46,541 nucleotides of DNA, taken from NCBI GenBank assembly GCA_028824715.1, contig JAPPCV010000046.1, positions 1 to 46,541 on the forward strand. Reading direction: 5' to 3'. Of this stretch, positions 1-16,464 are shown piece by piece; within the stretch, counting starts at the first letter, position 1, and each line of letters begins with the position of its first letter. This DNA comes from Boseongicola sp. (GTDB taxonomy: Bacteria; Pseudomonadota; Alphaproteobacteria; Rhodobacterales; Rhodobacteraceae). Position numbers and translations under genes: made by a program. A model generated the notes under the pieces. It saw only the letters and a program-made list of their open reading frames with translations, was not told where the DNA came from and did not search any database.

Positions 1-333
1 CGGATAGGCCGCCTGCATCGTGATCTGGTCGAGCACGCGCTTGGTGATGAAGGCGCAGAACGAATGGCAGAAGGGGATTTCGCCCGAGCGTGCCATGCCG
101 CCGGCCATGCCGATCATGTTCGCCTCGGCGATGCCTACATTGTGGAACCGTCCGGGCAGCTCGTCGCGGAACCGGTCGGTTTCGGTTGGGGGAACGAGGT
201 CGGCGCAAAGGGCGACGATGCGCTCGTCGGCCTTGGCGGCCTCGACCAGTGCGTCGCCGTAGGATCGCGGCAGGGTCTTGAAGGACCTGTTGATGAAATC
301 CGCAGCTTCGAGCTTGGTCAGGGTCTCGGCCAT
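1..333 (-). CDS. Transketolase, C-terminal (pyrimidine-binding) subunit, partial
   Basis: This is the first 111 codons of the second half of a split transketolase; the rest lies beyond the left edge. The start at 333 is ATG, six bases after the stop of the lipoyl-domain gene. The visible part has the transketolase pyrimidine-domain pattern, with ADLVPPTETDRF and the block FHNVGIAEANMIGMAGGMA, whose glutamate normally contacts the aminopyrimidine of ThDP. The N-terminal half is encoded at 3553-4380 in the same direction, so the two would combine into one enzyme. Split transketolases often serve specialised sugar catabolism (for example apulose-4-phosphate transketolase or sulfofructose transketolase) rather than the pentose phosphate pathway. 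Substrate unknown. Confidence 0.88.
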   Translation of the reverse strand, partial: MAETLTKLEAADFINRSFKTLPRSYGDALVEAAKADERIVALCADLVPPTETDRFRDELPGRFHNVGIAEANMIGMAGGMARSGEIPFCHSFCAFITKRVLDQITMQAAYP

Positions 334-339
334 GGCAGT

Positions 340-582
340 TCAATCGCCCTTTTCGATTCTGCAGACATTGTCACCGACAGGGACATCGTCTCCTTCGTCC
401 GCGAGGTGTTCCAGCATCGTGCCGTTGCAAGGCGCCTCGTACTCGTTCGTGACCTTCTCGGTTTCGACCTCGTAGAGGATGTCGCCCGCCTTGAAGCTCT
501 CGCCCGGACGGACCTTCCACGCGACAAGGGTGCCTTCTTCCATGTTCATGCCGATCCGGGGCATTTTCAGTGCGACTTTCAT
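340..582 (-). CDS. Free-standing lipoyl (biotinyl/lipoyl attachment) domain protein
   Basis: An 80-residue protein that is only a lipoyl domain. It starts MKVALKMPRIGMNMEEG and carries the attachment lysine, K43, within ETEKVTNE. Nothing follows the domain: there is no peripheral subunit-binding domain and no acyltransferase core, unlike a normal E2. It lies three bases after the E1-beta stop and six before the transketolase C-subunit start, so it is tightly embedded in the operon. It would present a swinging lipoyl arm to the E1 alpha/beta pair encoded just upstream. The acyltransferase and dihydrolipoyl dehydrogenase are either outside the window or borrowed from the housekeeping complexes. 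A biotin-carrier role is possible but less likely given ETEK rather than a AMKM-type motif. Confidence 0.85.
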   Translation of the reverse strand: MKVALKMPRIGMNMEEGTLVAWKVRPGESFKAGDILYEVETEKVTNEYEAPCNGTMLEHLADEGDDVPVGDNVCRIEKGD

Positions 583-585
583 TGT

Positions 586-1578
586 TCAGGCACCTCCTCC
601 TGTTGCGGCCTTGCCGAGAAGCCGGCGCACGGCGTCCGAGATGCTGGCTTCGTTCGGCAGGAGCGCCTTCTCCAGCGGCGGCGAATATGGCAAGGCCACA
701 TCCGGGACCGTGACGCGCCGGATCGGCGCCTTGAGCGCATCGAAGCACTGGTCGGCACAGATCGCCGCGACGTGGGACGCCGCGGAACACATGTCGCGCG
801 CCTCGTCCACGACGACCAGTCGACCGGTCCTGCGGACGGATTCAAGAATCGTCTCGCTGTCCAGCGGCACGACCGTGCGAGGATCGATCAGGTCGACGCC
901 GATCCCGGACCTTGCCAGTTCCTGCGCCGCGCGAAGTGCCGGCCGGACCATGGCGCCAATCGCCACGACCGTCACGTCGTCTCCTTCCTGAACCGTCGAG
1001 GCCTTGCCCATCTCGATGACATGATCGCCTTCGGGCACCTCGCCCTGTTCGCCGCCACGCCCCGCCGCCTGCAGGAACATCACGGGATTCGGATCATGAA
1101 TCGCCGAGCGCAGCAGGCCCATCGCATCGGCGGGCGTCGCCGGAAGGGCAACCTTGATCCCGCCCAGGTTCATGATCATCGGGTGCATCGCGTCGGAATG
1201 CTGCGCCGCGGCCGATCGACCTCCGCCGAAGACCCCCATGTAGACAATGGGCAGGGCGATCTGCCCGGCGGTCATGTAGCGCAGCTTGCTGGCCTGGTTG
1301 GCGATGCTGTCAAAGCCGGTGTACATGAAATTGCCGAACATCATGTGGCATACCACCTTGTACCCGGCCGCGGCAGCACCCACGGCCATGCCGCTCATCA
1401 CCGTTTCGGAGATCGGCATGTTGCGGACACGGTGGGCGCCGTGCTTGTCCTTCAAACCGCGCGTGTCGCCAAACAGGCTGATTTCGACATCCTCGCCGAA
1501 CACCACGACCTTCGGGTCCTTGGCCATTTCGCCATCAAGCGCTTCATTGATGGCCTGGATCATCCGTTTCTTTGCCAC
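586..1578 (-). CDS. 2-oxoacid/acetoin dehydrogenase E1 component, beta subunit
   Basis: A 330-residue protein with the transketolase-type pyrimidine domain followed by the C-terminal transketolase domain. Visible family features are VVVFGEDVE near residue 25, the ISETVMSGMAVGAAAAG block and the LIDPRTVVPLD segment that opens the C-terminal domain. It pairs with the alpha subunit encoded 15 bases upstream at 1594-2586 to make a heterotetrameric ThDP-dependent E1 that decarboxylates a 2-oxoacid or cleaves acetoin and passes the acyl group to a lipoyl arm, probably the domain encoded at 340-582. Length and architecture match PdhB/AcoB/BkdA2 proteins. Which substrate it uses cannot be decided here; an acetoin-type or pyruvate-type annotation would be guesswork. 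Confidence 0.88.
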   Translation of the reverse strand: MAKKRMIQAINEALDGEMAKDPKVVVFGEDVEISLFGDTRGLKDKHGAHRVRNMPISETVMSGMAVGAAAAGYKVVCHMMFGNFMYTGFDSIANQASKLRYMTAGQIALPIVYMGVFGGGRSAAAQHSDAMHPMIMNLGGIKVALPATPADAMGLLRSAIHDPNPVMFLQAAGRGGEQGEVPEGDHVIEMGKASTVQEGDDVTVVAIGAMVRPALRAAQELARSGIGVDLIDPRTVVPLDSETILESVRRTGRLVVVDEARDMCSAASHVAAICADQCFDALKAPIRRVTVPDVALPYSPPLEKALLPNEASISDAVRRLLGKAATGGGA

Positions 1579-1593
1579 GTCCCGGAACTCCCT

Positions 1594-2586
1594 TCAGGCA
1601 AACATGTAGTTGGTGCCCTGCATGGCAGGGTCGGGATAGGGCGAGCCTTCGGCGAACTGCACCGCCTCGGCCACTTCGGCGGCGATCTCCGCCTCGATCC
1701 GGTCGAGGTCGGCCTGGCTTGCCTGCCCGGCGTCCAAGACACGCTTGGCGAATGCAGGGATCGGGTCGCGGGCGATCCATTCGGCAACCTCTTCGTCCGA
1801 GCGGTATGTCGACCCAAGGAACGACACCTCGGCCTCGACGTGGCCGCGTTGCCGGTAGGTGCGCGCTTCTATCAAGGATGGTCCGTTGCCGGCACGTGCA
1901 TGCTTGATGGCCCGCGCAGCGCACTGGTGGACGGCGATCAAGTCGTTGCCATCCACCGCCTCGTGGGCGGCGCCGTAGGGCTTGGCCCGGTCGACGATGT
2001 TGCCTGCAGTCACGGTCGATGACGGCGAGAACTCGGAGAATCCGTTGTTTTCGCAAACGAAGATCACCGGCAGCTTCCAGAGCACGGCCACGTTCAGGGC
2101 CTCGCACAGGACTCCCTGGTTCGCGGCGCCGTCACCAAAGAAGGCAACGCCGACGGCTCCCTTGCCGTCCATCTGTGCAGCCCAGGCCGCTCCCGTGATG
2201 ATCGAGATTCCGGCGCCGACGATGCCATTCGCGCCGATGATTCCCTTGGAGAAATCCGCCACGTGCATGGATCCGCCGTGTCCCTTGCACATGCCGGTCT
2301 CGCGACCGTAGATTTCGGCCATCAGCAACTTGCTGTCTCCACCCTTTGCGAGGTAGTGGCCGTGTCCACGATGGGTCGAGGCAATCCAGTCGTCATCCGT
2401 GAGCTGCGAACAGAATCCGACGCCGACCGCCTCCTGCCCGATGTAGAGATGGACGGCGCCAGGTATGTTTCCCGCCTTGGCGTCATCGCCGATCCGCTCT
2501 TCAATCCTGCGAATTCGAAGCATGTCCCGGTAGAACCCAAGCATCTGCTCGTCCGAAAGATTTGCATCTGAAGGGGCAACGCTCAT
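1594..2586 (-). CDS. 2-oxoacid/acetoin dehydrogenase E1 component, alpha subunit
   Basis: A 330-residue E1 alpha subunit (E1_dh family). The ThDP/Mg motif is GDG at residues 151-153 followed by the EN-N pair at 179-181, and the phosphorylation-loop-type HRGHGH lies at 72-77. It binds the diphosphate of ThDP; the beta subunit downstream supplies the pyrimidine half of the site. The order alpha, beta, lipoyl domain reads like the start of an aco or pdh operon but without an E2 acyltransferase. It sits between a short-chain dehydrogenase and the split transketolase genes, so it probably handles an oxoacid or ketol produced within this pathway. Confidence 0.88.
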   Translation of the reverse strand: MSVAPSDANLSDEQMLGFYRDMLRIRRIEERIGDDAKAGNIPGAVHLYIGQEAVGVGFCSQLTDDDWIASTHRGHGHYLAKGGDSKLLMAEIYGRETGMCKGHGGSMHVADFSKGIIGANGIVGAGISIITGAAWAAQMDGKGAVGVAFFGDGAANQGVLCEALNVAVLWKLPVIFVCENNGFSEFSPSSTVTAGNIVDRAKPYGAAHEAVDGNDLIAVHQCAARAIKHARAGNGPSLIEARTYRQRGHVEAEVSFLGSTYRSDEEVAEWIARDPIPAFAKRVLDAGQASQADLDRIEAEIAAEVAEAVQFAEGSPYPDPAMQGTNYMFA

Positions 2587-2706
2587 TTCGAAGTGTCCTC
2601 TCTGTTGATCTGCCGAGAAGTGGTGGCGCGGATTGCCGGCGGCTTCGCCCGCAACGCGCGGCGGAAGCCGTGGCGTCCACGCACCGGGCCTTCCGGATCT
2701 CGGGAT

Positions 2707-3423
2707 TCAGTCATTTGCGATTCCTCCATCGACGTTGATCACCTGACCCGTGACGTAGGACGCATCGTCGGACAGGAGAAACGCTATCACCGCCGCGACG
2801 TCTTCGGGCTGGCCCAGCCGGCCGAGCGGGATGGTCGACAGAAGGGAGTCGCGCCCGCGCCGTTCGATCAGGCCCTCCGCCATCCGCGTTTCGATGATGC
2901 CGGGCGCCACGGCGTTCACGCAGATCCCCCGGTCCGCGACCCGCCGCGACAGCGCGCGGGTCAGCCCGACGATCGCGCCCTTCGCCATGGAATAGGCGGC
3001 GTGGTCGGGCACGCCCCTGTTGAATCCAAGCGACGAGGCAAGCGCGATGCGGCCGCCATCGGTCATGCGTGGCAGAGCCGCGCCGGCAATGTCAAAGGCG
3101 TTCGTTGCATTGTGCTGCATCGTTTGGTCGTAGATCTCGCGGCCGTCGGGGCCAAGATCATGGGGCATGAAGATGCCCGCCAGATGCACCAGCGCGGCAA
3201 CCGGTTCGGGCGCTTCCGGCAGCGCCTTCGCGCAGGCCGCCGGATCTTCGAGCCTGCTTTCGGCAATCGTGGTGCCTTCGGGCAGCGCCTGTCGCAGCGG
3301 CTCCAGCCGGCCGGCATCGACATCGACCAGATGCAGCCGCCATCCGTCCGCTGCCAGACGGCGGGCCAGCGCGACGCCGATTCCGCCGGCCGCGCCCGTG
3401 ATCACCGCGACCGGTGCCGTCAT
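2707..3423 (-). CDS. SDR family NAD(P)-dependent oxidoreductase
   Basis: A 238-residue classical short-chain dehydrogenase. The dinucleotide-binding motif TGAAGGIG is at residues 9-16, the catalytic serine at about 131, and the YxxxK pair is Y145/K149 in YSMAK. The C-terminal VTGQVINVDGG is typical of the FabG-like branch. It is transcribed with the transketolase and E1 genes, so oxidation of a hydroxyl on the pathway substrate or reduction of a ketol is the likely role. The cofactor and substrate cannot be determined; the Asp in LVDVDAG after the second beta strand favours NAD+ over NADP+. Confidence 0.88.
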   Translation of the reverse strand: MTAPVAVITGAAGGIGVALARRLAADGWRLHLVDVDAGRLEPLRQALPEGTTIAESRLEDPAACAKALPEAPEPVAALVHLAGIFMPHDLGPDGREIYDQTMQHNATNAFDIAGAALPRMTDGGRIALASSLGFNRGVPDHAAYSMAKGAIVGLTRALSRRVADRGICVNAVAPGIIETRMAEGLIERRGRDSLLSTIPLGRLGQPEDVAAVIAFLLSDDASYVTGQVINVDGGIAND

Positions 3424-3552
3424 GTCCCGCCTCTCCGGTCATGCGCCGATACATGCGACGCACCGCTTTGGCGGTTGCTGGGCTGTCGATGCCGTGTTTC
3501 CAAGTTCAATTGCGTCGGTCAGTCAAAGACCGGTCGTCCTTTCGTGTGAACG

Positions 3553-4380
3553 TCACTGCCGGGATTCCAGTTCGGCGCGGGCCGAGGCGGCAACCTCGGG
3601 CGGGAAGCGCAACTGGTGGAACTTCAACCCTTCCAGCGACGCGACACCCTTGCCCATCAATGTGTTGGCCTTGATGAAGCTCGGTTTGCCCCTGGTCGCA
3701 CGGGCTTGGTCATAGGCGCCCAGCAACGCGCCGATGTCATTGCCGTCGACCTCCTGACAGGCGAAGCCAAAGCTCTCCATCTTGTCCATCAAGGGCTCCA
3801 GCGACATGACGAGGTCCATCGGCCCCTCGGACTGCACGAAGTTGTAGTCCACGATCAGGCAGAGATTGTCGAGACCGCTGGCACCTGCGAGCATTGCGGC
3901 CTCCCAGATCTGGCCTTCCTGCATTTCACCGTCGCCGGCGATGACATAGACGCGGCGGGCGCGGCCCTGCCGCCTTGCCGCCAAGGCGCAACCGACGGCG
4001 ACTGACAGGCCCTGGCCAAGCGAGCCGCAGGTCGCCTCGACGAACGGCCCCATGCGCTCGGACGAGTTTATTTCCAGCGGCGAGCCGTCGGTGACATATG
4101 TGGAGAGCCGTTCCGTGTCGAAGAACCCGCGCTCCGCCAACGTGGCGTAGAAGATCGCCGTGTTGTGGGCGGTGGTCAGGAAGATCCGGTCCCTGTCCGG
4201 CCAGTCCGGATTGGCCGGATCCAACGTCGCCTCGGCGAAATAAAGCGACGTGAAGATGTCCGCTGCCCCGAGGCCTTGCAGAACGTAGCCCTGTCCCGAA
4301 GGCGCGACCATGTCCACCACGTGCATGCGGAGCCGCGTCGCGATCCTGTCAAGCTCTTCGAGGTTGTGTCCTGCTTGCAT
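3553..4380 (-). CDS. Transketolase, N-terminal (ThDP diphosphate-binding) subunit
   Basis: A 275-residue protein matching the N-terminal third of transketolase. It shows SLGQGLSVAVGCAL at 120-133 and the ThDP motif GDGEMQEGQ beginning at 149, closing with DYN at 178-180. It pairs with the C-terminal subunit at 1-333. The enzyme would transfer a two-carbon ketol unit between a ketose-like donor and an aldehyde acceptor. It is the first gene of the leftward arm and starts 65 bp from the divergent GntR regulator, so it is the likely controlled transcript start. Being separated from its partner by four genes is unusual, since the two halves are normally adjacent. Confidence 0.9.
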   Translation of the reverse strand: MQAGHNLEELDRIATRLRMHVVDMVAPSGQGYVLQGLGAADIFTSLYFAEATLDPANPDWPDRDRIFLTTAHNTAIFYATLAERGFFDTERLSTYVTDGSPLEINSSERMGPFVEATCGSLGQGLSVAVGCALAARRQGRARRVYVIAGDGEMQEGQIWEAAMLAGASGLDNLCLIVDYNFVQSEGPMDLVMSLEPLMDKMESFGFACQEVDGNDIGALLGAYDQARATRGKPSFIKANTLMGKGVASLEGLKFHQLRFPPEVAASARAELESRQ

Positions 4381-4419
4381 TGAATGTCCAAGGCGATGTA
4401 AAATGTCCTGGAACTTTGT

Positions 4420-4429
4420 ACCTGCAGGT
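4420..4429. promoter_or_regulatory. Perfect 10-bp palindrome, candidate operator of the divergon
   Basis: ACCTGCAGGT is a perfect palindrome in the 65-bp gap between the divergent transketolase and GntR genes, ending two bases before the GGGAGAGG ribosome-binding site of the regulator. GntR-family regulators bind inverted repeats and often control their own divergon. A role as operator is inference from position; a 10-bp palindrome can occur by chance. Confidence 0.3.
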
Positions 4430-4445
4430 CGGGAGAGGTTTCAAG

Positions 4446-5165
4446 ATGAATCTTCAGTCCATGAAGCGGAAGGCGGTCCCGTTGCATGCGGAAGTGGCAG
4501 GTGTCCTGCGACATCAGATCATGTCCGGGGACCTGCTGCCGGGCGCACGCCTTCCTGCGCTTCGGGAGCTGACCGAGGAGCTTGGCGTCGCGCGCATGAC
4601 CGTGGTGCAAGCGATGAACACGCTGGAAGATGAAGGTCTCATAGAGAAGCACTCAGGTCGCGGAACCTTTGTGCGCAAGGTCCAGATTCCTGACCGCGTC
4701 TCGCTGCAGGTGCGCGCAGAGATTTCGGAGATCTATGCGATGGTGGAGCAACTCGAAGTCTCGGTACGCAAGGGCGACGCAACCATCGAGAAGTCCAAGG
4801 ACGGAAGGTATTTTCGCTGCATGCGCCGCATCCATGCGCGGGGCGGCAAGCCATTTTGCCAGGTCGATATCCAGCTCGACGACCAAGTCTATGAACGCGC
4901 ACCAGACCGCTTCATGCAGGAGATCGTCGTCGCGGTCCTGCGCGACCTTGGCGTGGATATCGCAAATGCGCGCCAGAGAATCACGGTCGCCTATGCAGAC
5001 TTCGGCCTCGCGAAGGCGCTCGGGATCAAGGTGAACTCAGCCGTCTTCAAGGTGTTCAGGGAGTTCTTCGACGAACGCGGGGCCCTGATCTACTCGGCGA
5101 AGCTGTTCTATCCCTGTGACCTGCTTGAGCTGGAGATCGAGTTCACGACTGACAACCCTGCGTGA
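4446..5165 (+). CDS. GntR/HutC-family transcriptional regulator (UTRA domain)
   Basis: A 239-residue regulator. The N-terminal winged helix-turn-helix (about residues 8-72) includes the family pattern LPALRELTEELGVARMTV and GLIEKHSGRGTFV. The C-terminal half is a UTRA effector domain, ending in YSAKLFYPCDLLELEIEF, as in HutC/FarR-type members. The ATG at 4446 is chosen over the upstream start at 4380 because GGGAGAGG lies 7-8 bases before it and homology begins there. It sits between two divergent arms and probably senses the substrate or an intermediate of the pathway and represses both arms in its absence. Confidence 0.9.
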   Translation: MNLQSMKRKAVPLHAEVAGVLRHQIMSGDLLPGARLPALRELTEELGVARMTVVQAMNTLEDEGLIEKHSGRGTFVRKVQIPDRVSLQVRAEISEIYAMVEQLEVSVRKGDATIEKSKDGRYFRCMRRIHARGGKPFCQVDIQLDDQVYERAPDRFMQEIVVAVLRDLGVDIANARQRITVAYADFGLAKALGIKVNSAVFKVFREFFDERGALIYSAKLFYPCDLLELEIEFTTDNPA

Positions 5166-5195
5166 GCCGCATGACTGCGCGGGCGGACTTGCGGC

Positions 5196-5232
5196 TTGAC
5201 ATTTCGTGTGCATGCATCAAAGATACGTACGT
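5196..5232 (+). promoter_or_regulatory. Possible promoter and palindromic sites upstream of tctC
   Basis: A consensus -35 box TTGACA lies at 5196-5201; the best -10 match at 17-bp spacing is the weak AAAGAT at 5219-5224. Two 8-bp palindromes, TGCATGCA (5209-5216) and ACGTACGT (5225-5232), overlap the spacer and the -10 region, a position where a repressor could act. The transporter gene starts at 5277 after AAGGGAGAG. Assignment is by eye only. Confidence 0.3.
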
Positions 5233-5276
5233 CTGGATCAATGAGTCACAAGATGAAAGCAAGGGAGAGCTTCAAC

Positions 5277-6242
5277 ATGAACCTTATCAAGTTGGCCGCT
5301 GCCGCCACGGTCGTGCTGGGCCTCGGCACCGGTGCCGCGCTGGCCGAATACCCGGAGAAGCCGATTACGCTGGTCGTGTCGTTCGCCGCAGGAGGCAACG
5401 CGGACATCGGCGCGCGCCTGACGGCCGAAGCCGCCAGCGCGGAGCTGGGCGTGCCGATCAATGTCGTGAACAAGCCCGGCGGCGCGCACATTCCTGCAAC
5501 CATGAGCGTGCTCGAAGCGGATGCGGATGGCTATACCATCTTTCAATGGTCTCCTCCGAGCTTCATGGTTGTCCCGCTGACCCGTGCGGTGCCCTACAGC
5601 CCGAGGGAGGACTTCATTCCTTTCTATGCGGGCCCAACGGCATCCAATGCGCTCTACGTTCGGGCTGACAGTCCCCTCCAGACGTTCGAGGACTTTCTTG
5701 AAGCCGCGAGGAGCGAGAAGCTTAGCATGGGCGTCAACAACCTCGGCGCACCTCCGAACCTCAGCGCGGTTCAGCTGGCGTCCGAGTTCGGCCTGGAATT
5801 CAAGACCATCGCGCTGAAGACCGTTCCTGCAACCATGACCGGCCTGATTGGCGGACAGGTTGACGTTGGCGTCGGACAGATCGCGACAATCAACGCGTTC
5901 AAGAACGAGATCCGGCCCCTGATCATCCTGGACAACAACCGCCAGCCCTACTTTGAACAGCATCTGCCTGGCGTTCGCACCATAGGCGAAGCATCCCCGG
6001 GCAAGGAAGCCGGCGTCTGGGTTCACGGAGGCTGGGCCGTAAAGGCCGGAACCCCTCAGGAAATCGTCGACAAGCTGATTGCCGCTACCGCAGTGCTGGG
6101 CACCGAGGAGTTCATCTCCACCCTGCCGCCGGGCATCGACTGGCAGTTCGTGCACGGCCCCCACGACGTCGGGCAGCTTCTGCAGTCGGGCATCGACCTG
6201 TACTCGCCCATCCTTGACGGGCTTGGGCTGCTGCACAAGTGA
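5277..6242 (+). CDS. Tripartite tricarboxylate transporter substrate-binding protein (TctC/Bug family)
   Basis: A 321-residue periplasmic binding protein. The signal peptide spans about residues 1-23 with cleavage after GAALA, and the mature protein begins EYPEKPITLVVSFAAGG, the standard Bug-family opening in which the glycine-rich loop binds a carboxylate of the ligand. The ATG at 5277 follows AAGGGAGAG at a good distance and gives a clean signal peptide; an upstream in-frame start at 5196 does not. With the TctB and TctA genes that follow it forms a secondary, ion-driven importer. The ligand is probably a carboxylate or other anion; its identity is not visible. Confidence 0.92.
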   Translation: MNLIKLAAAATVVLGLGTGAALAEYPEKPITLVVSFAAGGNADIGARLTAEAASAELGVPINVVNKPGGAHIPATMSVLEADADGYTIFQWSPPSFMVVPLTRAVPYSPREDFIPFYAGPTASNALYVRADSPLQTFEDFLEAARSEKLSMGVNNLGAPPNLSAVQLASEFGLEFKTIALKTVPATMTGLIGGQVDVGVGQIATINAFKNEIRPLIILDNNRQPYFEQHLPGVRTIGEASPGKEAGVWVHGGWAVKAGTPQEIVDKLIAATAVLGTEEFISTLPPGIDWQFVHGPHDVGQLLQSGIDLYSPILDGLGLLHK

Positions 6243-6321
6243 AGTCCACGTGCGGAACCGGTTCGGGTGCCGCCAATCCGCGGCGCCCGTTCCACATTCC
6301 GCGTGCACGGGATACGGAATC

Positions 6322-6777
6322 ATGCTGACCCAGCGAGTGGCCAACATGGTCTTCACGGTCCTGGTCATCATCGCCTGTGGCTATTTTGCAGTGGTTGCAC
6401 AGGGATTCGAGGCCGCCGGACTGCTGGCAAGTTCCGGGCTTCCATCGAGATTCTTCCCGCAGCTCCTGTTGGGATTCACGGCACTTTGCGCGGCGGTCGT
6501 GCTTTATGTCTACGCCGTGAAGGGTGAGGCCGGAGATGAAGGCCAAACCGTTTTCGCGTCATCCGCAGAGGCCAGGCGCGGCCTGCTGGCGCTGGGTGCG
6601 GCCGTGGTCAGCTACATTGTCTGGCAGAATTTCGGATACATCGCGATGGCGCTGACATCCGGGCCGCTCCTCTGCTTGGCGATGGGCGTGCGCAACCCGG
6701 CTGTCTACGGCGTCGTCCTGGCGTTGGCGGCAAGCGTCTACCTGGTTTTCACCCAGTTGCTGGGGACACAATTCTAG
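6322..6777 (+). CDS. Tripartite tricarboxylate transporter small membrane subunit (TctB)
   Basis: A 151-residue membrane protein with four hydrophobic stretches (about residues 9-30, 42-66, 85-105 and 110-145), as expected of TctB. A characteristic RFFPQLL segment follows the first loop. The ATG at 6322 is preferred because it starts just before the first membrane helix. Its TAG stop shares a base with the GTG start of tctA, so the two membrane subunits are translationally coupled. Confidence 0.87.
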   Translation: MLTQRVANMVFTVLVIIACGYFAVVAQGFEAAGLLASSGLPSRFFPQLLLGFTALCAAVVLYVYAVKGEAGDEGQTVFASSAEARRGLLALGAAVVSYIVWQNFGYIAMALTSGPLLCLAMGVRNPAVYGVVLALAASVYLVFTQLLGTQF

Positions 6778-8285
6778 TGTTTGACGCTGCTGCAGTAGGG
6801 GTCGCGTTCGCGAACCTTCTTGATCCGTTCACGATGATTTTGCTGGTGACCGGAATCCTTCTTGGACTGGTCATCGGAATCCTCCCAGGTCTTGGGCCGC
6901 CGATCGCAATCGCCTTGGCATTGCCCTTCACGTTCTACATGGAAGCGGTTCCGTCGCTGATCCTGCTTCTGGCGATCTACAATGCCGCGATCTACGGGGG
7001 GTCAATTTCGGCCATTGCCGTCGGAATTCCGGGAACCGGGGCCGCGATCGCGACCGTCATGGACGGACACGCGATGTACAAGCAAGGTCGAGGCGGCGAG
7101 GCGCTGGGCCTGTCGCTGACCGGCAGCATCATTGGCGGGCTTGTAAGCGTCCTCTGCCTTACCTTCATCGCGCCCGTGCTTGCCCAGGTCGCGATCAAGT
7201 TCGGGCCTCGGGAATTCCTTGCCATCTCGATTTTCGGATTGGTCGTCGTAGTCCGCGTTGCGGGTGCCAACCTCTTCAAGGGACTGCTTGTCGGCGGCCT
7301 GGGCATCTTCCTGACGACCTGGGGGCTGGATGAACTGAATGGCGCAGAGCGCTACACCTTCGGGACCTATCACTTGTATGAAGGCATACCGCTGGTTCCG
7401 TTTCTGGTCGGCATTTTCGCGGTGTCCGAGGTCTTGATCGGGGCGGAGAAGGCGCTGAAACGAATCGAGTTCGACAAGACCAGCCTGACCGTGAAGATCC
7501 CGGGCCTGAAGACCCTGTCCAGGCTCAAGGGCAACCTGGCGCGATCTTCGCTCCTGGGCACGATAATCGGGATCATCCCCGGAGAGGGCGCCGCGGTCGG
7601 CGCGTTCTTTGCCTATTCGGAAGAGAAACGTCGTTCCAAGGAGCCGGAAAGGTTCGGCACGGGCATTCCCGAAGGCATCGTTGCTCCCGAAACGGCGAAC
7701 AACGCGACCGTCGGCGGCGCGCTGGTTCCGACACTGACCCTAGGCGTGCCAGGCAGTCCGGCCGCAGCGGTCCTGCTGGGCGCGTTCCTGATCCAGGGCC
7801 TGGCACCGGGGCCGACGCTCTTTGACGAGCGTCCGGACATCATGTACTCCCTGTTCCTTGGCCTCTTCTTCATCAACATCCTGCTGTTCTTCATCGGCCT
7901 GTTCGCGATCCGCTTTGCCGCAATGCTGATCAAGGTACCGATGACCGTGATCGTGCCGACCGTCCTCTTGCTGAGCTTCACCGGCATCTATGCGGTCTCG
8001 AACAGTCTCTTCAACGTGGGGGTCCTGTTGGCGGCCGGCGTGCTGGGATACGTCGTCAGGAAGCTGGGCTATTCCATAGCGCCGCTGTCCATCGGCTTCG
8101 TGCTCGGCCCGATCCTGGAAAACTCGCTGCGCCAGTCCATCACGATCGCGGATGGCAGCACGGCAGAATTCTTCAACACCCCGATCGGTCTCGGGATCTA
8201 CGCCGCCCTGGCGCTGACAATCCTCTGGGGACCTATCTCGACCTGGGTGAGAAGCCGCATGGCGGGAAAGGTTGAGGATCCATGA
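6777..8285 (+). CDS. Tripartite tricarboxylate transporter large membrane subunit (TctA)
   Basis: A 502-residue polytopic protein of the TctA family (DUF112). The signatures GILPGLGPPIAIALALPF near the N terminus and IIPGEGAAVGAFFAYSEEKR followed by GIPEGIVAPETANNA and LGVPGSPAAAVLLGAF in the middle are family-defining. It starts with GTG in a TAGTG overlap with tctB. Its TGA stop overlaps the ATG of the sulfatase gene (ATGA), so transporter and sulfatase are made together, which is strong contextual evidence that the sulfatase acts on the imported compound. Confidence 0.93.
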   Translation: MFDAAAVGVAFANLLDPFTMILLVTGILLGLVIGILPGLGPPIAIALALPFTFYMEAVPSLILLLAIYNAAIYGGSISAIAVGIPGTGAAIATVMDGHAMYKQGRGGEALGLSLTGSIIGGLVSVLCLTFIAPVLAQVAIKFGPREFLAISIFGLVVVVRVAGANLFKGLLVGGLGIFLTTWGLDELNGAERYTFGTYHLYEGIPLVPFLVGIFAVSEVLIGAEKALKRIEFDKTSLTVKIPGLKTLSRLKGNLARSSLLGTIIGIIPGEGAAVGAFFAYSEEKRRSKEPERFGTGIPEGIVAPETANNATVGGALVPTLTLGVPGSPAAAVLLGAFLIQGLAPGPTLFDERPDIMYSLFLGLFFINILLFFIGLFAIRFAAMLIKVPMTVIVPTVLLLSFTGIYAVSNSLFNVGVLLAAGVLGYVVRKLGYSIAPLSIGFVLGPILENSLRQSITIADGSTAEFFNTPIGLGIYAALALTILWGPISTWVRSRMAGKVEDP

Positions 8286-9775
8286 GGAAAAGACCGAACA
8301 TCCTTCTGATCTACGCCGACCAGATGCGGTACGACGCGATGAGCTGTGCGGGCAATCCGACCGTAAGGACGCCGCACATCGACAGGCTGGCAAGCGAGGG
8401 AGTCCAGTTCACCGAGGCCTACGCGTCGTACCCGGTCTGTTGCCCGTTTCGCGCCTCCGTGATGACGGGCAAGTACGCCCAAAGGCACGGGTTGGTTCAA
8501 AACCACTTCCCGCTGCGCGGCGATCAGGTCTTCCTTGCCGATCTGATGAAGGATGCCGGCTACCGGACCGGGTATATCGGAAAGTGGCATCTCGAAGGCG
8601 GGCCCAAGCCCGGCTTCGTGCCGCCCGATCGCCGATTCGGCTGGGACCACTTCATAGGCTTCAATCGCGGCCACGAGTACATGTCATCCATATACTACGA
8701 TGACGATGGTCAGGCCTATCATTCCAAGCGCTATGAACCGGACTACCAGACCGATCAGCTGATCGACTTCATATCCGACGCGTCGACCGCCAAGGACGCC
8801 AAGCCCTGGATCGGGTACGTGAGTTATGGTCCCCCGCACTTCCCGATGGACATGCCGGACTACCTGCGCAGGGTCTACAGCCCGGACGAGGTTCCCTTGC
8901 CGGCAGGCGTTCCGAACATGGAACTGCAGCGCAGGACCCAGAGAATCCGAAACGAGGTCTGGTGTGGCGGCGATCCGCGGTCGGGACACGCGAGCCATGC
9001 GGCCTACGACACAAAGCCCGTCGGAGAGCCGGAAACGGAGGCCGAAATCCGCGAGTTCATCGCCGAGTACTACGGCATGATCCACAACATAGACTGGAAC
9101 GTTGGACGGATCCTGAACGAACTTGATCGCCAGGGAATCGCGGATGACACGGTCGTGCTGTTCTTCAGCGATCACGGCGACATGTGCGGCCAGCACGGCC
9201 ACTACTGCGGGATCAAGAACACGGCTTACCGGGCCGCAATGCACGTGCCGTTGATCGTCCGGTACAGCGCTCGGTTCAAGCCGCAGAAGACCGAGGCGCT
9301 TGTCGATGTCGGCCCTGACATGATGCCAACGATCCTCGACATCGTTGGTGCGGACATGCCCAAGGACATCGATGGCCAAAGCTACCTTCCCGTTCTCGAC
9401 GGCGAAGAGGCCGAGGCGCGCGACGCGATCTGGTACCAGGTCTTTGCCCAGACGGGCGCCAACCCACACGAGTTTGCGCCGTTTGCCGAGCGCGGCATTC
9501 GCACCAAGGACTGGCTCTACATGCGCCACAAGGACAAGCGCGTGCTGCTATTTGACGAGCGTGCAGACTACCATGAACAGAACAACCTGGTGGATGATCC
9601 GGCGTATCAGACGCTGATGGACGAGTTTGACGCCCGGATCGCAGCCCACATGGAGGCGAGCGGCGATGATTGGGAGATGGCAGCGGACTTCCCGCCGCCA
9701 GGTTGGATCACCCACGCCGAGGCGAAGAAACACCTTGAAGAGGTGCTCCTGCCGAACGCGATCGAGGTCGCCTGA
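8282..9775 (+). CDS. Sulfatase (type I, formylglycine-dependent), cytoplasmic
   Basis: A 497-residue sulfatase of the alkaline-phosphatase superfamily. The formylglycine motif CxPxR is CCPFR at residues 53-57, so C53 would be converted to formylglycine by a maturase encoded elsewhere. Metal-ligand patterns ADQMR near residue 13 and FFSDHGD in the C-terminal half are present, as is GKWHLEGG. There is no signal peptide: the catalytic fold begins at residue 5. The enzyme should therefore hydrolyse a sulfate ester inside the cell. The start overlaps the tctA stop. The motif context differs from choline sulfatase (CAPARAS type), so that name is not justified; the substrate is unknown. Confidence 0.92.
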   Translation: MRKRPNILLIYADQMRYDAMSCAGNPTVRTPHIDRLASEGVQFTEAYASYPVCCPFRASVMTGKYAQRHGLVQNHFPLRGDQVFLADLMKDAGYRTGYIGKWHLEGGPKPGFVPPDRRFGWDHFIGFNRGHEYMSSIYYDDDGQAYHSKRYEPDYQTDQLIDFISDASTAKDAKPWIGYVSYGPPHFPMDMPDYLRRVYSPDEVPLPAGVPNMELQRRTQRIRNEVWCGGDPRSGHASHAAYDTKPVGEPETEAEIREFIAEYYGMIHNIDWNVGRILNELDRQGIADDTVVLFFSDHGDMCGQHGHYCGIKNTAYRAAMHVPLIVRYSARFKPQKTEALVDVGPDMMPTILDIVGADMPKDIDGQSYLPVLDGEEAEARDAIWYQVFAQTGANPHEFAPFAERGIRTKDWLYMRHKDKRVLLFDERADYHEQNNLVDDPAYQTLMDEFDARIAAHMEASGDDWEMAADFPPPGWITHAEAKKHLEEVLLPNAIEVA

Positions 9776-9864
9776 ACAAGACACGTCCAGGTTGCGGTCC
9801 CAAGCGAGACGTTCGCCGCCAGCCAGTCCCGCATGGGACGACCCGAGTTCACAAGGGGAATCCG

Positions 9865-10623
9865 TTGGAAACCAGGGGCGATCACGTTCTCATCACAGGC
9901 GGGTGCGATGACATCGGCCTCGGCATCGCGCACGCGTTCCTGGACCAGGGCATGCGGATCACGCTGGTCGACCCGAACATCGCGCCAGGCCAGGCGCTGG
10001 CCGCCGAGCAGGATCGCGCAAGCCTGATCGAGCTTGACCTTGCCAATGCGGAAGCCGTCGCGGCGCGGCTGAATCCCTTGGCGCAGTCACCTGACGCGCC
10101 GGACGTTCTGATCAATGGCGCCGGCTGGGCACCCAAGACAAGCCCGGAAGGCAAGCCCCGGACGGCCCGGGAAATGCCTGTGGCGCATTTCAGCCGGGTC
10201 GTGTCTGCCAATCTCGCTGCAGTCCTCCAGCGCACCGGCATCTTCATTCCGGCCATGCTGGCGCGTGGGCATGGGCGCATCATCAACATCGCGTCGCTTG
10301 CCGCACGGATCGGCGGAACCGTGGCACCGGTGCACTATGTCTCGGGCAAGGCCGGAGTGCCGGGGCTGACGAGGGTTGTCGCGCGCGAACTGGGTGGCAC
10401 GGGACCGACGGTCAACGCGATCAATCCCGGCAGAATCGACACCCAAATGATCAAGGACGTGCCCGACGAGGCAAGTCAGGCCATCGCCGCCCGGATCCCT
10501 GCGGGCCGGCTCGGTCTGCCAGCCGATGTCGCCAAGGTCTGCCTGTTCCTGGCCGCCAACCTCGCAGACTGCCTGACCGGGACGGCAATTGAGGTCAACG
10601 GCGGCCTTTACGTCGGACCGTGA
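9865..10623 (+). CDS. SDR family NAD(P)-dependent oxidoreductase
   Basis: A 252-residue short-chain dehydrogenase. The nucleotide-binding loop is TGGCDDIG (residues 11-18), the catalytic serine S144, and Y158/K162 form the YxxxK pair. LVDPNIAPG after the second strand has an acidic residue, favouring NAD+. It starts with TTG, preceded at a suitable distance by AAGGGGA (9853-9859); no ATG or GTG fits better. It is the next gene after the sulfatase (89 bp gap) and probably oxidises the desulfated product. Confidence 0.86.
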   Translation: METRGDHVLITGGCDDIGLGIAHAFLDQGMRITLVDPNIAPGQALAAEQDRASLIELDLANAEAVAARLNPLAQSPDAPDVLINGAGWAPKTSPEGKPRTAREMPVAHFSRVVSANLAAVLQRTGIFIPAMLARGHGRIINIASLAARIGGTVAPVHYVSGKAGVPGLTRVVARELGGTGPTVNAINPGRIDTQMIKDVPDEASQAIAARIPAGRLGLPADVAKVCLFLAANLADCLTGTAIEVNGGLYVGP

Positions 10624-10668
10624 ACGCGTCGATGAAGCCGTCACGATTCAAGCGCTGAGGAGCGGACC

Positions 10669-12381
10669 ATGCCAAACGAAGTCACGAGGGCGATGAATGG
10701 CGGCGAGGCGATCGTCGAGATGCTTCGGCGGTTCGACGTGGACATGATGTTCGGCCTGCCAGGCGAACAAACCCACATTCACGATGCAATATTCCGTCGC
10801 AACGACATCCGGCATCTGCTGGTGCGGCACGAACAAGCAGCGGCAAAGATGGCCGATTCCCATGCGCGAGCAACCGGCAAGGTCGGTGTCTGCGATGCCA
10901 CGGTCGGGCCGGGCGCCACCAACCTGATCAGCGGCATTTCAGAGTCCTTCCTCTCGGGCATTCCCGTCGTGGCCATCGTCTCCGACGTTCGGGCGGACTG
11001 GCGCGGTCGTGAATCGTTTCAGGAGATCGACCAGACAACGCTCTTTCGCTCGATCACCAAGAAGGTCTTCTCGGTGGATCATGTCGAGCGAATTCCGGAA
11101 TTCGTGAAGCGGGCCTTCCAGATCGCGACCACCGGACGGCCTGGCCCAGCGCTTCTGAGCTTCCCGATGACGACGCTGCGGACGACGCACGAATTCGCCG
11201 AAGAAGACCTGGAAGTCGACACGCGCTACGCCCGATGGCCAGCGTACCGACCAACGCCACCCCGGCACGAGATTGCCGCCGCGGTCGACGCAATTCTCTC
11301 CGCGACGCGTCCGATCATCCTCGGCGGCGGCGGCGTGATGGCCTCGGGCGCGACGGCCGAGGTCAGGAAGCTCGCCGAACTGCTCGACATGCCGGTGGCG
11401 ACGTCCTACATGGGCAAGGGCTCGCTGCCAGAGCATCACCCCCTCAGCCTCGGACCCTATGGTCTCCTCGGGAGACCGGTGTCGAACGAATACGTCCTTC
11501 AGGCGGATTTGGGACTGGCCTTGGGGACCCGTTTCAACAACGTCGGCACGGCCGCTTGGCGCATTCCTGACAGGAAGACGCGCCTGGTCCAGATCGACAT
11601 CGAGCCAACCCAGATCGGCCGCAACTACACGGTTGACCTGGCACTGACGGGCGACATCAAGGCCGTGTTGCGGGAGATGCTCGACCTTCTCAGGTCCGAC
11701 CCTCGCGTCACGCCGAAAACGACGCAGCGCGACGCCGTTTCCGCCATTTCCTCGAATTGGCGAAAGGAGAAGGGCATCGAGTCACCGCTAGCCCAGGATC
11801 GTGACGCCAGGCCGGTTCATCCGATCCAGGTCATCCGTGCGATGCGGGACGCCATGCAGGACGACGACGTCCTTGTCTGTGATTCCGGATTCAACCAGAT
11901 TTGGGGCGGCCAGTATTTCGAGGTGCGGAGTCCGGGACGAAACTACCTGGGACCGCGCGGCTTCGGCGTAATGGGCTATGGCTTGCCTGCCGCAATCTCG
12001 CGCGCATTGACAACGCCCGACCAGAAAGTCGTCTGCCTGACCGGCGACGGCGGATTCGCCATGGTTGTCCAGGAGTTGGAGACAGCCGTGCGCAGCGGCG
12101 CCAACCTTGCCGTCGTTGTCATGAACAACTCGAACATGCATTTCATAAAGGACAACCAGAGGCTCTTCTTCGACGGCCGCTACATTTCCACCGAGTTCAC
12201 CGAGTTGGACTACGCCGAAATTGCGCGCGCGTTTGGCTGTACGGGCATTCGGGTCGAGAACAGCGGTGAATTGGACCACGCACTTGCCGAAGCGATGCGC
12301 AGCGACAAGACGTCAGTGATTGACGTGCGCATTCTGGACGACGCTGTGCCGGAGCGAGTCAGCCTCCAGTCATTCAAGTGA
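10669..12381 (+). CDS. ThDP-binding enzyme, acetolactate synthase large-subunit-like
   Basis: A 570-residue protein with the three domains of the pyruvate oxidase/acetolactate synthase family. The catalytic glutamate is E55 in RHEQAA, and the ThDP motif is GDGGF at 459-463 closing with NN at 486-487. There is no small regulatory subunit gene alongside, and the cluster is catabolic, so biosynthetic acetolactate synthesis is unlikely. A 2-oxoacid decarboxylase, carboligase or lyase is more plausible. The N-terminal segment does not resemble sulfoacetaldehyde acetyltransferase (Xsc). It is the last gene of the rightward arm. Confidence 0.85.
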   Translation: MPNEVTRAMNGGEAIVEMLRRFDVDMMFGLPGEQTHIHDAIFRRNDIRHLLVRHEQAAAKMADSHARATGKVGVCDATVGPGATNLISGISESFLSGIPVVAIVSDVRADWRGRESFQEIDQTTLFRSITKKVFSVDHVERIPEFVKRAFQIATTGRPGPALLSFPMTTLRTTHEFAEEDLEVDTRYARWPAYRPTPPRHEIAAAVDAILSATRPIILGGGGVMASGATAEVRKLAELLDMPVATSYMGKGSLPEHHPLSLGPYGLLGRPVSNEYVLQADLGLALGTRFNNVGTAAWRIPDRKTRLVQIDIEPTQIGRNYTVDLALTGDIKAVLREMLDLLRSDPRVTPKTTQRDAVSAISSNWRKEKGIESPLAQDRDARPVHPIQVIRAMRDAMQDDDVLVCDSGFNQIWGGQYFEVRSPGRNYLGPRGFGVMGYGLPAAISRALTTPDQKVVCLTGDGGFAMVVQELETAVRSGANLAVVVMNNSNMHFIKDNQRLFFDGRYISTEFTELDYAEIARAFGCTGIRVENSGELDHALAEAMRSDKTSVIDVRILDDAVPERVSLQSFK

Positions 12382-12763
12382 ACGCAGGGACGCGCACGCG
12401 AGCATCCCGGCGGGACGCCGGAACGCTTGCGTGAAGGCAGCCTCTCGCGATTTCCGAAATCCACGTCGCCGATCTGGCGCCACGACACCGGAACTGCCAT
12501 CCGGCTTGCCACGCCGCCTGCGTCGAGCTCCTCGTGCCATGCCATGTCGCGGATTGGCCGAGGCACCCCAGCCTGCCTGCCAACGGGAAGTCTCCTGGAC
12601 AGCGGTCTCGAATGGTGATCGGATCTTCCTCCCCGCCCCGAACGCGCGCTGGCAACGGCCCTGCCCGCCAGCCTCGGTGGCGCGGCCTGCAGGCACGCCT
12701 GTCGCCGGAACGGTCGGGGAGACGCGCCCCGGCAGGCGACTCATCTTCGCGATGCCAAGCCTC
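12382..12763. other. 382-bp interval at the end of the catabolic cluster, no gene recognised
   Basis: Converging genes flank this stretch. Open frames cross it on both strands but none resembles a known protein or has a convincing start. A small hairpin, CCGGC-GGGAC-GCCGG at 12407-12421, lies 26 bp after the ThDP-enzyme stop but has no T-run, so it is at best a weak transcription-ending structure. Confidence 0.5.
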
Positions 12764-13444: not shown

Positions 13445-13598
13445 GAAACACCTGAACTCCTTGCGCGGGACACTAGACTTGGAAAATCGCGGCGACAAGC
13501 GCCTTGCGACGCGTCCGCCCGACATGCCCCGCACTGGTTCACGTTTGATGTCGCGGACCCGTCAATTCCGGGGTCGCCCGAAGGGACTCTCGCTCCGG

Positions 13599-14288: not shown

Positions 14289-14445
14289 TGCGTCCTCCGC
14301 AGCTATCCCGGAGGACATGCGAGGGCTCCGGGCGTCTTGCAAGAAATGCTGCAAAATTTCACTTGGACGTGTCACAGGCGGTGGAAATGTTTCAAGGAAT
14401 AGCGGAAACAGGCTTGGTGAGAGATCTGAACGGTAAAGGACACCG

Positions 14446-16100: not shown

Positions 16101-16464
16101 TGTCTCGACAGGAATGCCGTTGATGCTGCACGCGAGTGTCGGCGGCACCGTGTGCGAACATCACCCGGCGTCACTGCCGGCACCCATGAACAGGACGGCC
16201 AAGTCGCCGCGTGCCGTCTGCTGGCGGCGGGCACTGCCTGGTTTGTCGAAACGAGGGAAGCACGAGGTTCGCACCGTCACTCTTCCAGTTCCCCGCACGC
16301 TTTCGGAGCTTGCGCATTCGAACGCACGCTCACCTCTCCGGCTGCCTCCGGGTGATGCTCCCCCATGCCGCATCGCGCGTTCCAGGCTGCCCGGTCTCTC
16401 CGGTGCCATCCAGGCGCGATGTCGCCTTGCCTCGACCAAGCCCATCCCGAGGAAGGCGCTTGCC
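16101..16464. other. 364-bp convergent interval, no gene recognised
   Basis: The stretch lies between two converging genes. Open frames exist on both strands, as usual at this GC content, but their translations are rich in Arg, Pro and Ser and look like out-of-frame sequence. I see no clear terminator or RNA structure. Confidence 0.5.

Follow-up and report, generated by a model that had tools for sequence, protein, structure and literature searches.

A gene cluster in Boseongicola sp. combines a tripartite importer, a formylglycine sulfatase and ThDP-dependent enzymes around a GntR/HutC-type regulator. We give about even odds to the view that it serves the regulated catabolism of a small carboxylate-bearing sulfate ester through import, intracellular desulfation, oxidation and ThDP-dependent cleavage without phosphorylation, followed by aldehyde dehydrogenase (ALDH) and enolase-superfamily (MR_MLE) steps, the most likely class of substrate being sulfated sugar acids or comparable polyhydroxy acids. 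This would represent a recurrent yet rare route in which a sulfate ester is taken up whole, desulfated inside the cell and its carbon skeleton cleaved without phosphorylation. It would involve a transketolase-fold clade that annotation would call transketolase despite the loss of several substrate-binding residues, and an apparent natural swap of one such histidine-less enzyme for an acetolactate-synthase (ALS)-fold enzyme. Identification of the substrate would tie particular bacteria, including the sponge-associated Ca. Rhodobacter lobularis (PMC4559732), to a pool of sulfated organic matter.

Gene content and promoter elements

The analysed window (46,541 nucleotides; contig C139) contains a GntR/HutC gene flanked by two divergent arms, TctCBA–sulfatase–SDR–ALS-like on the plus strand (arm 1) and TktN–SDR–E1αβ–lipoyl–TktC on the minus strand (arm 2, or arm A; Table 1). 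Pfam domain and curated-model scans recovered every component named in an earlier, sequence-only reading of this DNA, which had drawn the cluster too small, as two further genes (ALDH and MR_MLE) lie outside the window. The end of contig C55 is repeated in the first 55 bases of the window, and C55 carries the rest of TktC, a decayed ALDH and the MR_MLE gene. Since TktC and MR_MLE occur in the same order on a single contig in four same-genus genomes (L031, L033, L034 and L035), the join of C139 and C55 is very likely real. Values of dN/dS of ~0.03-0.21 in 12 of 13 genes and 0.33 in SDR2 (TctB left out) indicate purifying selection on the cluster genes.

Table 1. Features of the cluster and their positions in the window.
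Feature	Position	Strand	Basis or remark
TktC (C-chain, N-terminal part), enzyme A	1..333	-	pyrimidine-binding and C-terminal domains; continues on contig C55 (L005 15594-16298)
Lipoyl domain, stand-alone	340..582	-	Pfam Biotin_lipoyl; 80 aa
E1 beta-type ThDP subunit	586..1578	-	domain/model searches
E1 alpha-type ThDP subunit	1594..2586	-	domain/model searches
SDR1	2707..3423	-	Pfam
TktN, N-chain, split histidine-less transketolase-fold ThDP enzyme A	3553..4380	-	Pfam, alignment, tree
Operator-like element AGGTACAAAGTTCCAGGAC, upstream of TktN	4405..4423	-	
GntR/HutC-type regulator (GntR + UTRA)	4446..5165, ATG 4446	+	
-35-like TTGACA	5196..5201	+	from sequence; operator-like element ~20 bp downstream
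Operator-like element AGATACGTACGTCTGGATC, upstream of TctC	5221..5239	+	
TctC, binding protein	5277..6242, ATG 5277	+	leader peptide by eye
TctB	6079..6777	+	ORF; homology with many relatives starts at ~6322
TctA, large membrane subunit of TTT importer	6777..8285	+	
S1-type formylglycine sulfatase, predicted cytoplasmic	8282..9775	+	
SDR2	9865..10623	+	Pfam
Acetolactate-synthase-like ThDP enzyme, apparently in place of split ThDP enzyme B	10669..12381	+	

The regulator contains both the GntR helix-turn-helix and the UTRA domain that define the HutC subfamily and scores 76 bits against the curated HutC model (cut-off 220), and thus appears to be a member of this GntR subfamily but not HutC itself. 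One 19-bp operator-like element recurs in the promoters on the TktN and TctC sides, which makes the control of both arms by one regulator plausible, as the earlier reading had proposed; we infer that GntR acts by repression. No further matches were found in the window's genome with a pattern derived from the two window sites, whose own perfect match is circular. The weights of the element rest on 24 downstream regions out of 25, L078 being left out for its low score. The divergent regions were scored against simple shuffles, and for four of the 23 the result was no better than 2-4 per 100. Pfam matches to TctA, TctB and TctC and a leader peptide on TctC, recognized by eye, identify the importer as a tripartite tricarboxylate transporter (TTT). 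PDB sequence searches with TctC, MR_MLE and the sulfatase indicated no substrate, with solved relatives of TctC and the sulfatase being only distant.

Distribution and lineage-specific components

A query with the ALS-like protein (P0002) gave no match at E<=1e-130 among 197 other genomes of the family, and the sulfatase was therefore taken as query. The genome scan yielded 32 loci with sulfatases of at least 66% identity in alpha- and gammaproteobacteria, and within the family the system was present in three of 197 other genera sampled. A split transketolase-fold or ALS gene accompanies the sulfatase in 31 of the 32 loci, compared to none of ten unrelated sulfatase loci, which lack any of the partner genes. 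The gene for the split ThDP enzyme A lies at the same locus in 25/32, so that both arms are linked there. In 23 of the 25 it diverges from GntR, with other arrangements in L085 and L093. Among the seven loci that lack it, L064, L067, L068 and L072 start at a contig end short of its place, and L078, likewise cut by a contig end, retains only fragments of TktN and MR_MLE. In the stretch covered, L079 and L089 encode importer and sulfatase without arm A. The 32 loci are not independent and include five same-genus genomes (L062, L063, L065, L066 and L090) and three loci carried under two labels (L087, L082 and L084 correspond to L045, L046 and L047); furthermore, several loci end at contig ends and presence refers to identity thresholds set by the analyst.

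The carriers, which number a few dozen bacterial genomes, include marine forms. Pacificoceanicola onchidii XY-301, Primorskyibacter sedentarius DSM 104836 and HIMB11 are carriers available in culture, and L079, one of the two loci without arm A, belongs to Primorskyibacter. Going by their names, other MAG carriers are presumably of sponge origin. HIMB11 is described as planktonic (PMC4148974).

A second histidine-less split enzyme (enzyme B, TktN2/C2) is encoded in 24 of the 32 loci and the ALS-like enzyme in seven, with no locus containing both. One or the other is found on the side of the sulfatase in 31/32, encoded by the other strand in the case of L067 and L068. At >=50% identity, SDR1 was detected in six of seven ALS loci and never among the 24 loci with TktN2/C2, and SDR2 is degraded or undetected in four of five same-genus relatives. 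Comparison within the genus and across the 32 loci led us to discard E1αβ, the lipoyl domain and SDR2 as core parts; together with the ALS-like enzyme, all of which had been listed as parts of the cluster, they are lineage-specific. ALDH is full-length in some relatives, lost or in decay within the window's genus, and intact or partial in only 11/32 loci. The order TktN–TktC–ALDH–MR_MLE is shared by L069, L070, L071, L074, L080 and L084; L081 shows it with TktN3/C3.

Catalytic signatures

TktN and TktC carry transketolase Pfam domains and find their best PDB matches in the split transketolase 6yak/6yaj. The Asp of the GDG motif is conserved in 48/48 N-chains and the catalytic Glu in 42/42 C-chains (here and below, 19 of enzyme A and 23 of enzyme B). 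Of the transketolase active-site residues His30, His103, His469 and Asp477 (yeast numbering), His30 is replaced by Tyr and His103 by Asn, Ser or Met in all 48 N-chains, and His469 and Asp477 are replaced in all 42 C-chains. His263 is retained in 44/44 N-chains of enzymes A and B but missing from the A3 column, which may be misaligned, and the His69 position is invariant in 12/12 sequences of a separate alignment. His481 is kept in 41/42 C-chains, and Arg528, presumably a phosphate contact, is present in 19/19 C-chains of enzyme A and aligns with Gly in 23/23 of enzyme B. In a tree of 70 sequences (midpoint-rooted for drawing only, with A3 as a long branch), both N-chain histidines are absent from 60/60 members of one side and present in 10/10 of the other, which places the 'split transketolase' in a well-supported histidine-less clade. 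TktN alone scores 132 bits against TIGR00232 (cut-off 682) and 224 against NF004559 (cut-off 488), where a split chain is expected to fall under a full-length model. The former designation as a two-subunit transketolase is a domain-level name, and a canonical transketolase pathway was dropped in view of the four replaced active-site residues, yet His481 and, in enzyme A, Arg528 remain.

Homologs of these ThDP enzymes elsewhere often lie beside TRAP importers (L114, L061/L117 and L054/L060; scanned in L114, L061, L054 and L060) and, in L114 and L054, also beside MR_MLE; the neighbours in L114 include an altronate/galactarate-type dehydratase and PfkB. This context agrees with the catabolic, sugar-acid-like setting suggested previously, with the exception of an A-type homolog in G385 (L113), which has no sugar-acid gene among four scanned neighbours.

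The ALS-like enzyme reaches 467 bits against a curated biosynthetic large-subunit cut-off of 538, and a role as biosynthetic acetolactate synthase was discarded on account of this score and the presence of TktN2/C2 in its stead in 24 loci. It appears to be a natural replacement of one histidine-less split enzyme, and probably substitutes for it functionally. The lone lipoyl domain contains the expected lipoyl Lys (ETEKVT) and lacks an E2 catalytic domain. Of a 2-oxoacid/acetoin dehydrogenase complex, the cluster encodes only E1αβ and this domain; neither an E2 acyltransferase domain nor E3 was found within it.

A catalytic set of KxK, three metal ligands, an Asp-His dyad and Glu, the signature of the MR subgroup, is invariant in 15/15 aligned MR_MLE orthologs and was recognized by eye in the window genome's own copy. 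Both MR_MLE and ALDH score far under curated models of known sugar-acid enzymes (96 bits for the HIMB11 MR_MLE ortholog against the talarate/galactarate dehydratase model, cut-off 500).

The sulfatase contains the formylglycine motif C53-C-P-F-R57. Its C-x-P-x-R, metal and sulfate-site residues are invariant in 32/32 sequences (window and 31 loci), and its fold (best Foldseek E 3.8e-31) agrees with these residues in pointing to the S1 formylglycine sulfatase class. No leader was visible by eye in the window or the 32 loci, consistent with the earlier description of the enzyme as signal-less, and extracellular polysaccharide desulfation was dropped on this ground. A formylglycine-generating enzyme (FGE) gene lies within the locus in 13/32, and the window's own genome encodes one.

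Proposed route, alternatives and known systems

From these features we infer the step order and every reaction of the following route. TctCBA would take up a small sulfate ester with a carboxylate, the cytoplasmic sulfatase would strip its sulfate and an SDR would turn a hydroxyl into a ketone, next to which split enzyme A would cut the keto-acid without prior phosphorylation. ALDH would oxidise the aldehyde-acid fragment to an acid that MR_MLE would dehydrate or racemise, leading into central metabolism. In most of the lineages covered, split enzyme B would catalyse a further ThDP step, a role that would fall to the ALS-like enzyme in the window; here, as in the rest of the genus, E1αβ and the lone lipoyl domain may trap a two-carbon fragment as acyl-lipoyl. 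Of the earlier interpretation, the co-occurrence, the common regulation of both arms (through the shared element), the leaderless sulfatase and the sugar-acid context are supported; the transketolase identity, the core gene list and the cluster extent are not. The proposal is favoured by the retention of most of the gene set in the 32 loci, set against its absence from the ten control loci, and further by purifying selection, the FGE and SulP genes, the invariant catalytic residues of sulfatase and MR_MLE, the predominance of carbohydrate sulfatases among the nearest structures listed, the recurrent TktN–TktC–ALDH–MR_MLE order, the neighbours of the ThDP homologs and the element present in both promoters. 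Counted against it are the distance of TctC and the sulfatase from solved relatives, flavoenzyme genes unusual for a plain sugar-acid route, the decay of ALDH in the genus and its limited occurrence, the two loci without arm A, the low curated scores of MR_MLE and ALDH, the context of L113, and the retention of His481 and Arg528 in enzyme A.

Those flavoenzymes (FMO-like in 11/32 loci, PAMO/steroid-monooxygenase-like BVMO in five and GMC oxidoreductase in four), together with relatives of a luciferase-like monooxygenase and an alpha/beta hydrolase further away in L077, L086 and L087, would suit a sulfated ketone or alcohol of more hydrophobic character, such as an aromatic, terpenoid or sterol-like compound, with its skeleton opened by ThDP acyloin lyases and flavin monooxygenases. 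However, the FMO-like, BVMO-like and GMC enzymes are all absent from the window's six closest relatives, scans of a subset of the recurring neighbours detected no ring-cleaving dioxygenase, CoA ligase or thiolase, and the MR_MLE and TTT/TRAP partners suggest small hydroxy-acids; we consider such a substrate unlikely. The two arms might instead serve unrelated functions under one regulator, sulfate scavenging and a separate carbon catabolism, as loci L079 and L089 and sulfatase/TctA pairs without these ThDP genes in G021 would allow. The position of TktN2/C2 or ALS on the sulfatase side and the operator-like element common to both arms render this quite unlikely.

A formylglycine phosphonate monoester or phosphodiester hydrolase acting on a phosphorus ester appears very unlikely as the identity of the 'sulfatase': PMH structures and the phosphoric/sulfuric ester hydrolase model PehA are among its matches and FGE would suit either enzyme, but the arylsulfatase model is ahead (236 vs 198 bits, both under their cut-offs), carbohydrate sulfatases head the list and form the majority of the 50 nearest structures listed, and a SulP sulfate permease is encoded in 2/32 loci (a third homolog, in L077, is under thresholds). 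A conventional pathway, such as sulfo-TK or apulose-4-phosphate transketolase, with transfer of glycolaldehyde onto phosphorylated sugars, seems most improbable; the Pfam domains, the 6yak/6yaj matches and the kept His481 and Arg528 speak for it, whereas the four replaced residues and the lack of a kinase among the window's cluster genes and the scanned recurring neighbours speak against it.

A rather unlikely extension of the preferred sulfate-ester route is that the histidine-less split proteins represent ThDP acyloin lyases of a new class, which would act on unphosphorylated keto-acids and release an activated hydroxyethyl (methyl-ketone) unit instead of glycolaldehyde. Sulfated fuconate or rhamnonate would be examples of a suitable 6-deoxy sugar acid. 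This would explain the replacement of one split enzyme by an ALS-type enzyme, the insertion of an acetoin-dehydrogenase-like E1 and lipoyl carrier in the arm, and the methyl-ketone-type Baeyer-Villiger enzymes of some lineages.

The literature searched, which included few subscription papers, contained nothing combining transketolase, sulfatase, tripartite tricarboxylate transporter and mandelate racemase and no account of this system, in agreement with the earlier remark that no described pathway with the combination is known. Enolase-superfamily and sulfatase expansions are described for SAR202, in a paper that makes no mention of transketolase (PMC6946804). Acetoin dehydrogenase and the E1 of PDH resemble the cluster in pairing E1αβ with a lipoyl carrier but differ in their E2 acyltransferase domain and E3. 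The sulfo-TK pathway of sulfoquinovose uses a canonical-type transketolase in a phosphorylated route. It shares transketolase subunits acting on a sulfur-bearing sugar and differs in its sulfonate, as opposed to a sulfate ester; the cluster instead encodes a sulfatase and histidine-less enzymes, and no kinase was observed in it. A tartrate-type MR_MLE dehydratase, together with ALDH, could process a C4 aldehyde acid. In Gluconobacter, a 5-keto-gluconate-forming host, a mutant transketolase is described to yield such an acid, tartaric semialdehyde (PMC12016104), a loose precedent for keto-acid cleavage that differs in relying, as described, on an engineered canonical transketolase without sulfatase, importer or MR_MLE. 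Rif15 of rifamycin biosynthesis, likewise a two-subunit ThDP enzyme of transketolase fold, is described to catalyse an unusual reaction, although it is biosynthetic and uses fructose-6-P as donor (PMC6002545).

Gene content, conservation and distribution of the cluster

All genes named in the sequence-only reading were recovered in the window by Pfam and NCBIfam scans. Because the window's contig (C139) overlaps contig C55 by 55 bases, the left arm can be followed onto C55, which contains the remainder of TktC, a 178-aa aldehyde dehydrogenase (ALDH) remnant with similarity confined to the C-terminal part of the enzyme, and an MR_MLE enolase-superfamily protein. TktC is followed by MR_MLE on a single contig in four same-genus genomes (L031, L033, L034, L035); the contig of a further same-genus locus, L032, stops before this region.

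Features with coordinates in the window and in two further stretches
Feature	Contig or locus	Position	Remark
Overlap with C55	C139 (window)	1-55	identical to the final 55 bases of C55
Operator-like element	C139	4405-4423	
GntR, likely start	C139	4446	ATG; read from the sequence
Operator-like element	C139	5221-5239	
TctC, likely start	C139	5277	ATG, then leader peptide; read from the sequence
TPR protein with C-terminal sulfotransferase domain	C139	17105-19285	726 aa; ~5 kb from the sulfatase cluster
Second TctABC cluster of the window's own genome	C151 (L006)	94-19000	
Decayed cluster copy	L116 (genome G104)	7823-10193	partial TctA; first 82 sulfatase residues fused into TktC2; broken TktN2

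TktN orthologs (92-96% identity) are present in five of the seven other genomes of the genus, all five of which share GntR, TctCBA, the sulfatase, the acetolactate-synthase-like enzyme (ALS), SDR1, E1α and E1β in synteny; lipoyl, TktC and MR_MLE are present in the four genomes with sufficiently long contigs. Compared with the window's genome, dN/dS was ~0.03-0.21 in 12 of 13 genes tested and 0.33 for SDR2. Full-length SDR2 occurs only in the window's genome (G000) and G001, with remnants in G002, G003 and G007 and none detected in the G005 locus, while ALDH is partial in G000, G001 and G003 and was not detected in the G002 and G007 loci; thus, both genes are undergoing loss in this genus.

A survey of 198 genera in the family, one genome apiece and the window's own among them, gave sulfatase matches (E ≤ 1e-120) in five genomes. 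Besides the own genome these are G090, G188 and G207, at 70-73% identity, and G021, whose matches (53-55%) have none of the cluster's ThDP genes nearby. Only three of 337 genomes of the class gave a TktN match at E ≤ 1e-70: the own genome, G385 (58%) and G506 (49%). When contigs from 84,980 species were scanned with an alignment of six sulfatases, 42 loci were obtained, 32 at 66-95% identity, which take in the five same-genus genomes, and ten at ≤33%. Carriers among the 32 include Paracoccaceae/Roseobacteraceae, Geminicoccaceae, Granulosicoccaceae and Thioalkalivibrio sp. HK1. The cluster is decayed in one further locus (L116), and in Ca. Rhodobacter lobularis (L091) TktN, TctC, TctA, sulfatase and TktC2 are each fragmented, reflecting decay or sequencing errors.

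Partner genes in the 32 loci were scored by identity thresholds chosen for this analysis. The importer is nearly universal (TctA 31, TctC 30, TctB 30), followed by GntR (28), MR_MLE (23), SDR3 (19), FGE (13), ALDH (11, with partial copies in L062 and L063), FMO-like (11) and BVMO-like (5) genes, GMC (4) and SulP (2); SDR2 (7, some partial), SDR1 (6), ALS, E1α and E1β (7 each) and lipoyl (4) also occur. The search for the gene set elsewhere confirmed that the sulfatase co-occurs with split transketolase-fold genes, as ThDP enzyme A (TktN/TktC or the variant TktN3/TktC3) is encoded in 25 loci and TktN2 and TktC2 (enzyme B) in 24 each. Four of the seven loci without enzyme A start at a contig end before its place (L064, L067, L068, L072), L078 has TktN and MR_MLE as fragments only, at a contig end, and enzyme A is missing from L079 and L089 within the stretch seen. 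None of the ten low-identity loci contained scored partner genes, one sulfatase self-match aside.

Enzyme B and ALS never co-occur in the 32 loci, and one or the other is present in 31, the exception being L079, which has distant transketolase-like genes only. SDR1 accompanies ALS in six of seven loci, the seventh (L064) being a 5.3-kb contig, and is found with TktN2/TktC2 in none of 24. This pattern suggests that ALS may functionally replace TktN2/TktC2. ALS is carried by close relatives of the window and by Pacificoceanicola onchidii (L093, 78% identity), so the events are few. The window's own genome also encodes a TktN2/TktC2 pair (59-61% identity), at another place; its neighbours are a TRAP importer, an epimerase, SDRs, zinc ADHs and a further GntR.

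Sulfatase and split transketolase-fold enzymes

C53-x-P-x-R57, D13, K101, H103, H186, D297, H298 and K312 are invariant in the sulfatases of the window and 31 loci (32 of 32 sequences), and the own genome contains one formylglycine-generating gene (FGE). By eye, no hydrophobic leader was seen ahead of the catalytic domain, in agreement with the proposed signal-less enzyme. The predicted model (pLDDT 85.3, pTM 0.91) matched mainly carbohydrate sulfatases (21-27% identity) among the 50 matches listed, with phosphonate monoester hydrolases lower among them, which supports the predicted sulfatase class but does not indicate the substrate.

The split transketolase of the sequence-only reading stands as a pair of split transketolase-fold genes but lacks several active-site residues of transketolases. 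Using the genome's own full-length transketolase as reference, we compared 48 N-chains (20 A, 24 B, 4 A3) and 42 C-chains (19 A, 23 B, 0 A3) at the positions of yeast transketolase H30, H103, H263, H469, D477, H481 and R528, the last a phosphate contact. H30 and H103 are missing in 48/48 N-chains, which retain the ThDP aspartate, and H469 and D477 in 42/42 C-chains, which retain the catalytic glutamate. H263 is kept in 44/44 A and B N-chains, H481 in 41/42 C-chains, and R528 in 19/19 A C-chains, its column being glycine in 23/23 of B. In a tree of 70 sequences, a branch (support 99/91) parts 60 histidine-less chains from ten with both histidines. The loss of H30, H103, H469 and D477 suggests that the donor differs and that the phosphate site is weaker, without pointing to a particular substrate.

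Neighbours of histidine-less homologs were scanned in several loci, L114, L113, L054 and L060 among them. The A-type homolog of G506 (L114) lies near LacI, MR_MLE, a TRAP importer, SDRs, a PfkB kinase, an altronate/galactarate-type dehydratase and a GMC oxidoreductase with 57% identity to its counterpart in the sulfatase clusters. In other Rhodobacteraceae, a fourth subclade without the histidines is accompanied by SDR genes at most loci mapped; the two scanned further, L054 and L060, both encode TRAP importers, with MR_MLE in L054 and an iron ADH in L060. The G385 homolog (L113) runs against this pattern, its four scanned neighbours (FAD protein, MFS transporter, amidase, HlyD-type protein) including no sugar-acid gene. 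L113 excepted, the theme is an organic-acid importer, an SDR and a ThDP enzyme that lacks the histidines; a sugar-acid type gene is often present as well.

The fourth-subclade loci, L054 and L060 among them, apparently represent a further uncharacterised catabolic cluster. Separately, the second TctABC cluster of the own genome (L006) contains a sulfotransferase, an arylsulfotransferase-like protein, an MBL-fold protein, LysR, an FAD monooxygenase, ALDH, Fe-ADH, the start of another sulfatase and a further E1αβ pair (~55% identity), whose accompanying lipoyl-like protein is altered (VTGKAS).

A shared promoter element

Weights from 24 of 25 GntR–TctC regions gave the operator-like consensus AGGTACGTACATCTAGACC. 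Applied to TktN–GntR regions, these weights were beaten by at most one of 100 shuffles at 19 of 23 loci and by 2-4 per 100 at the remaining four. A pattern derived from the two window elements, whose own perfect match is hence circular, had no third perfect match in the 5.24-Mb genome; when up to two mismatches were allowed, there was no excess over the control (8 in all versus 14). The downstream element shares bases with the -10 region expected after TTGACA, a placement that would fit a repressor.

Proposed pathway

The gene order TktN–TktC–ALDH–MR_MLE is found in six relatives and, with TktN3/TktC3, in L081. From this order, we propose that TktN–TktC would cleave a keto acid, ALDH would oxidise the resulting aldehyde acid, and MR_MLE would dehydrate or epimerise the ALDH product. 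With moderate confidence, a sulfated sugar acid is our best single guess for the substrate; the chief feature that it leaves unexplained is the flavin monooxygenases of some lineages. In gammaproteobacterial MAGs (L071, L072, L074, L075, L089), a phenylacetone/steroid-monooxygenase-like Baeyer-Villiger enzyme is linked to the sulfatase cluster, the L072 protein scoring about 600 bits against 1w4x. A mutant transketolase is reported to make tartaric semialdehyde (PMC12016104), which may serve as a loose precedent for the keto-acid cleavage step.
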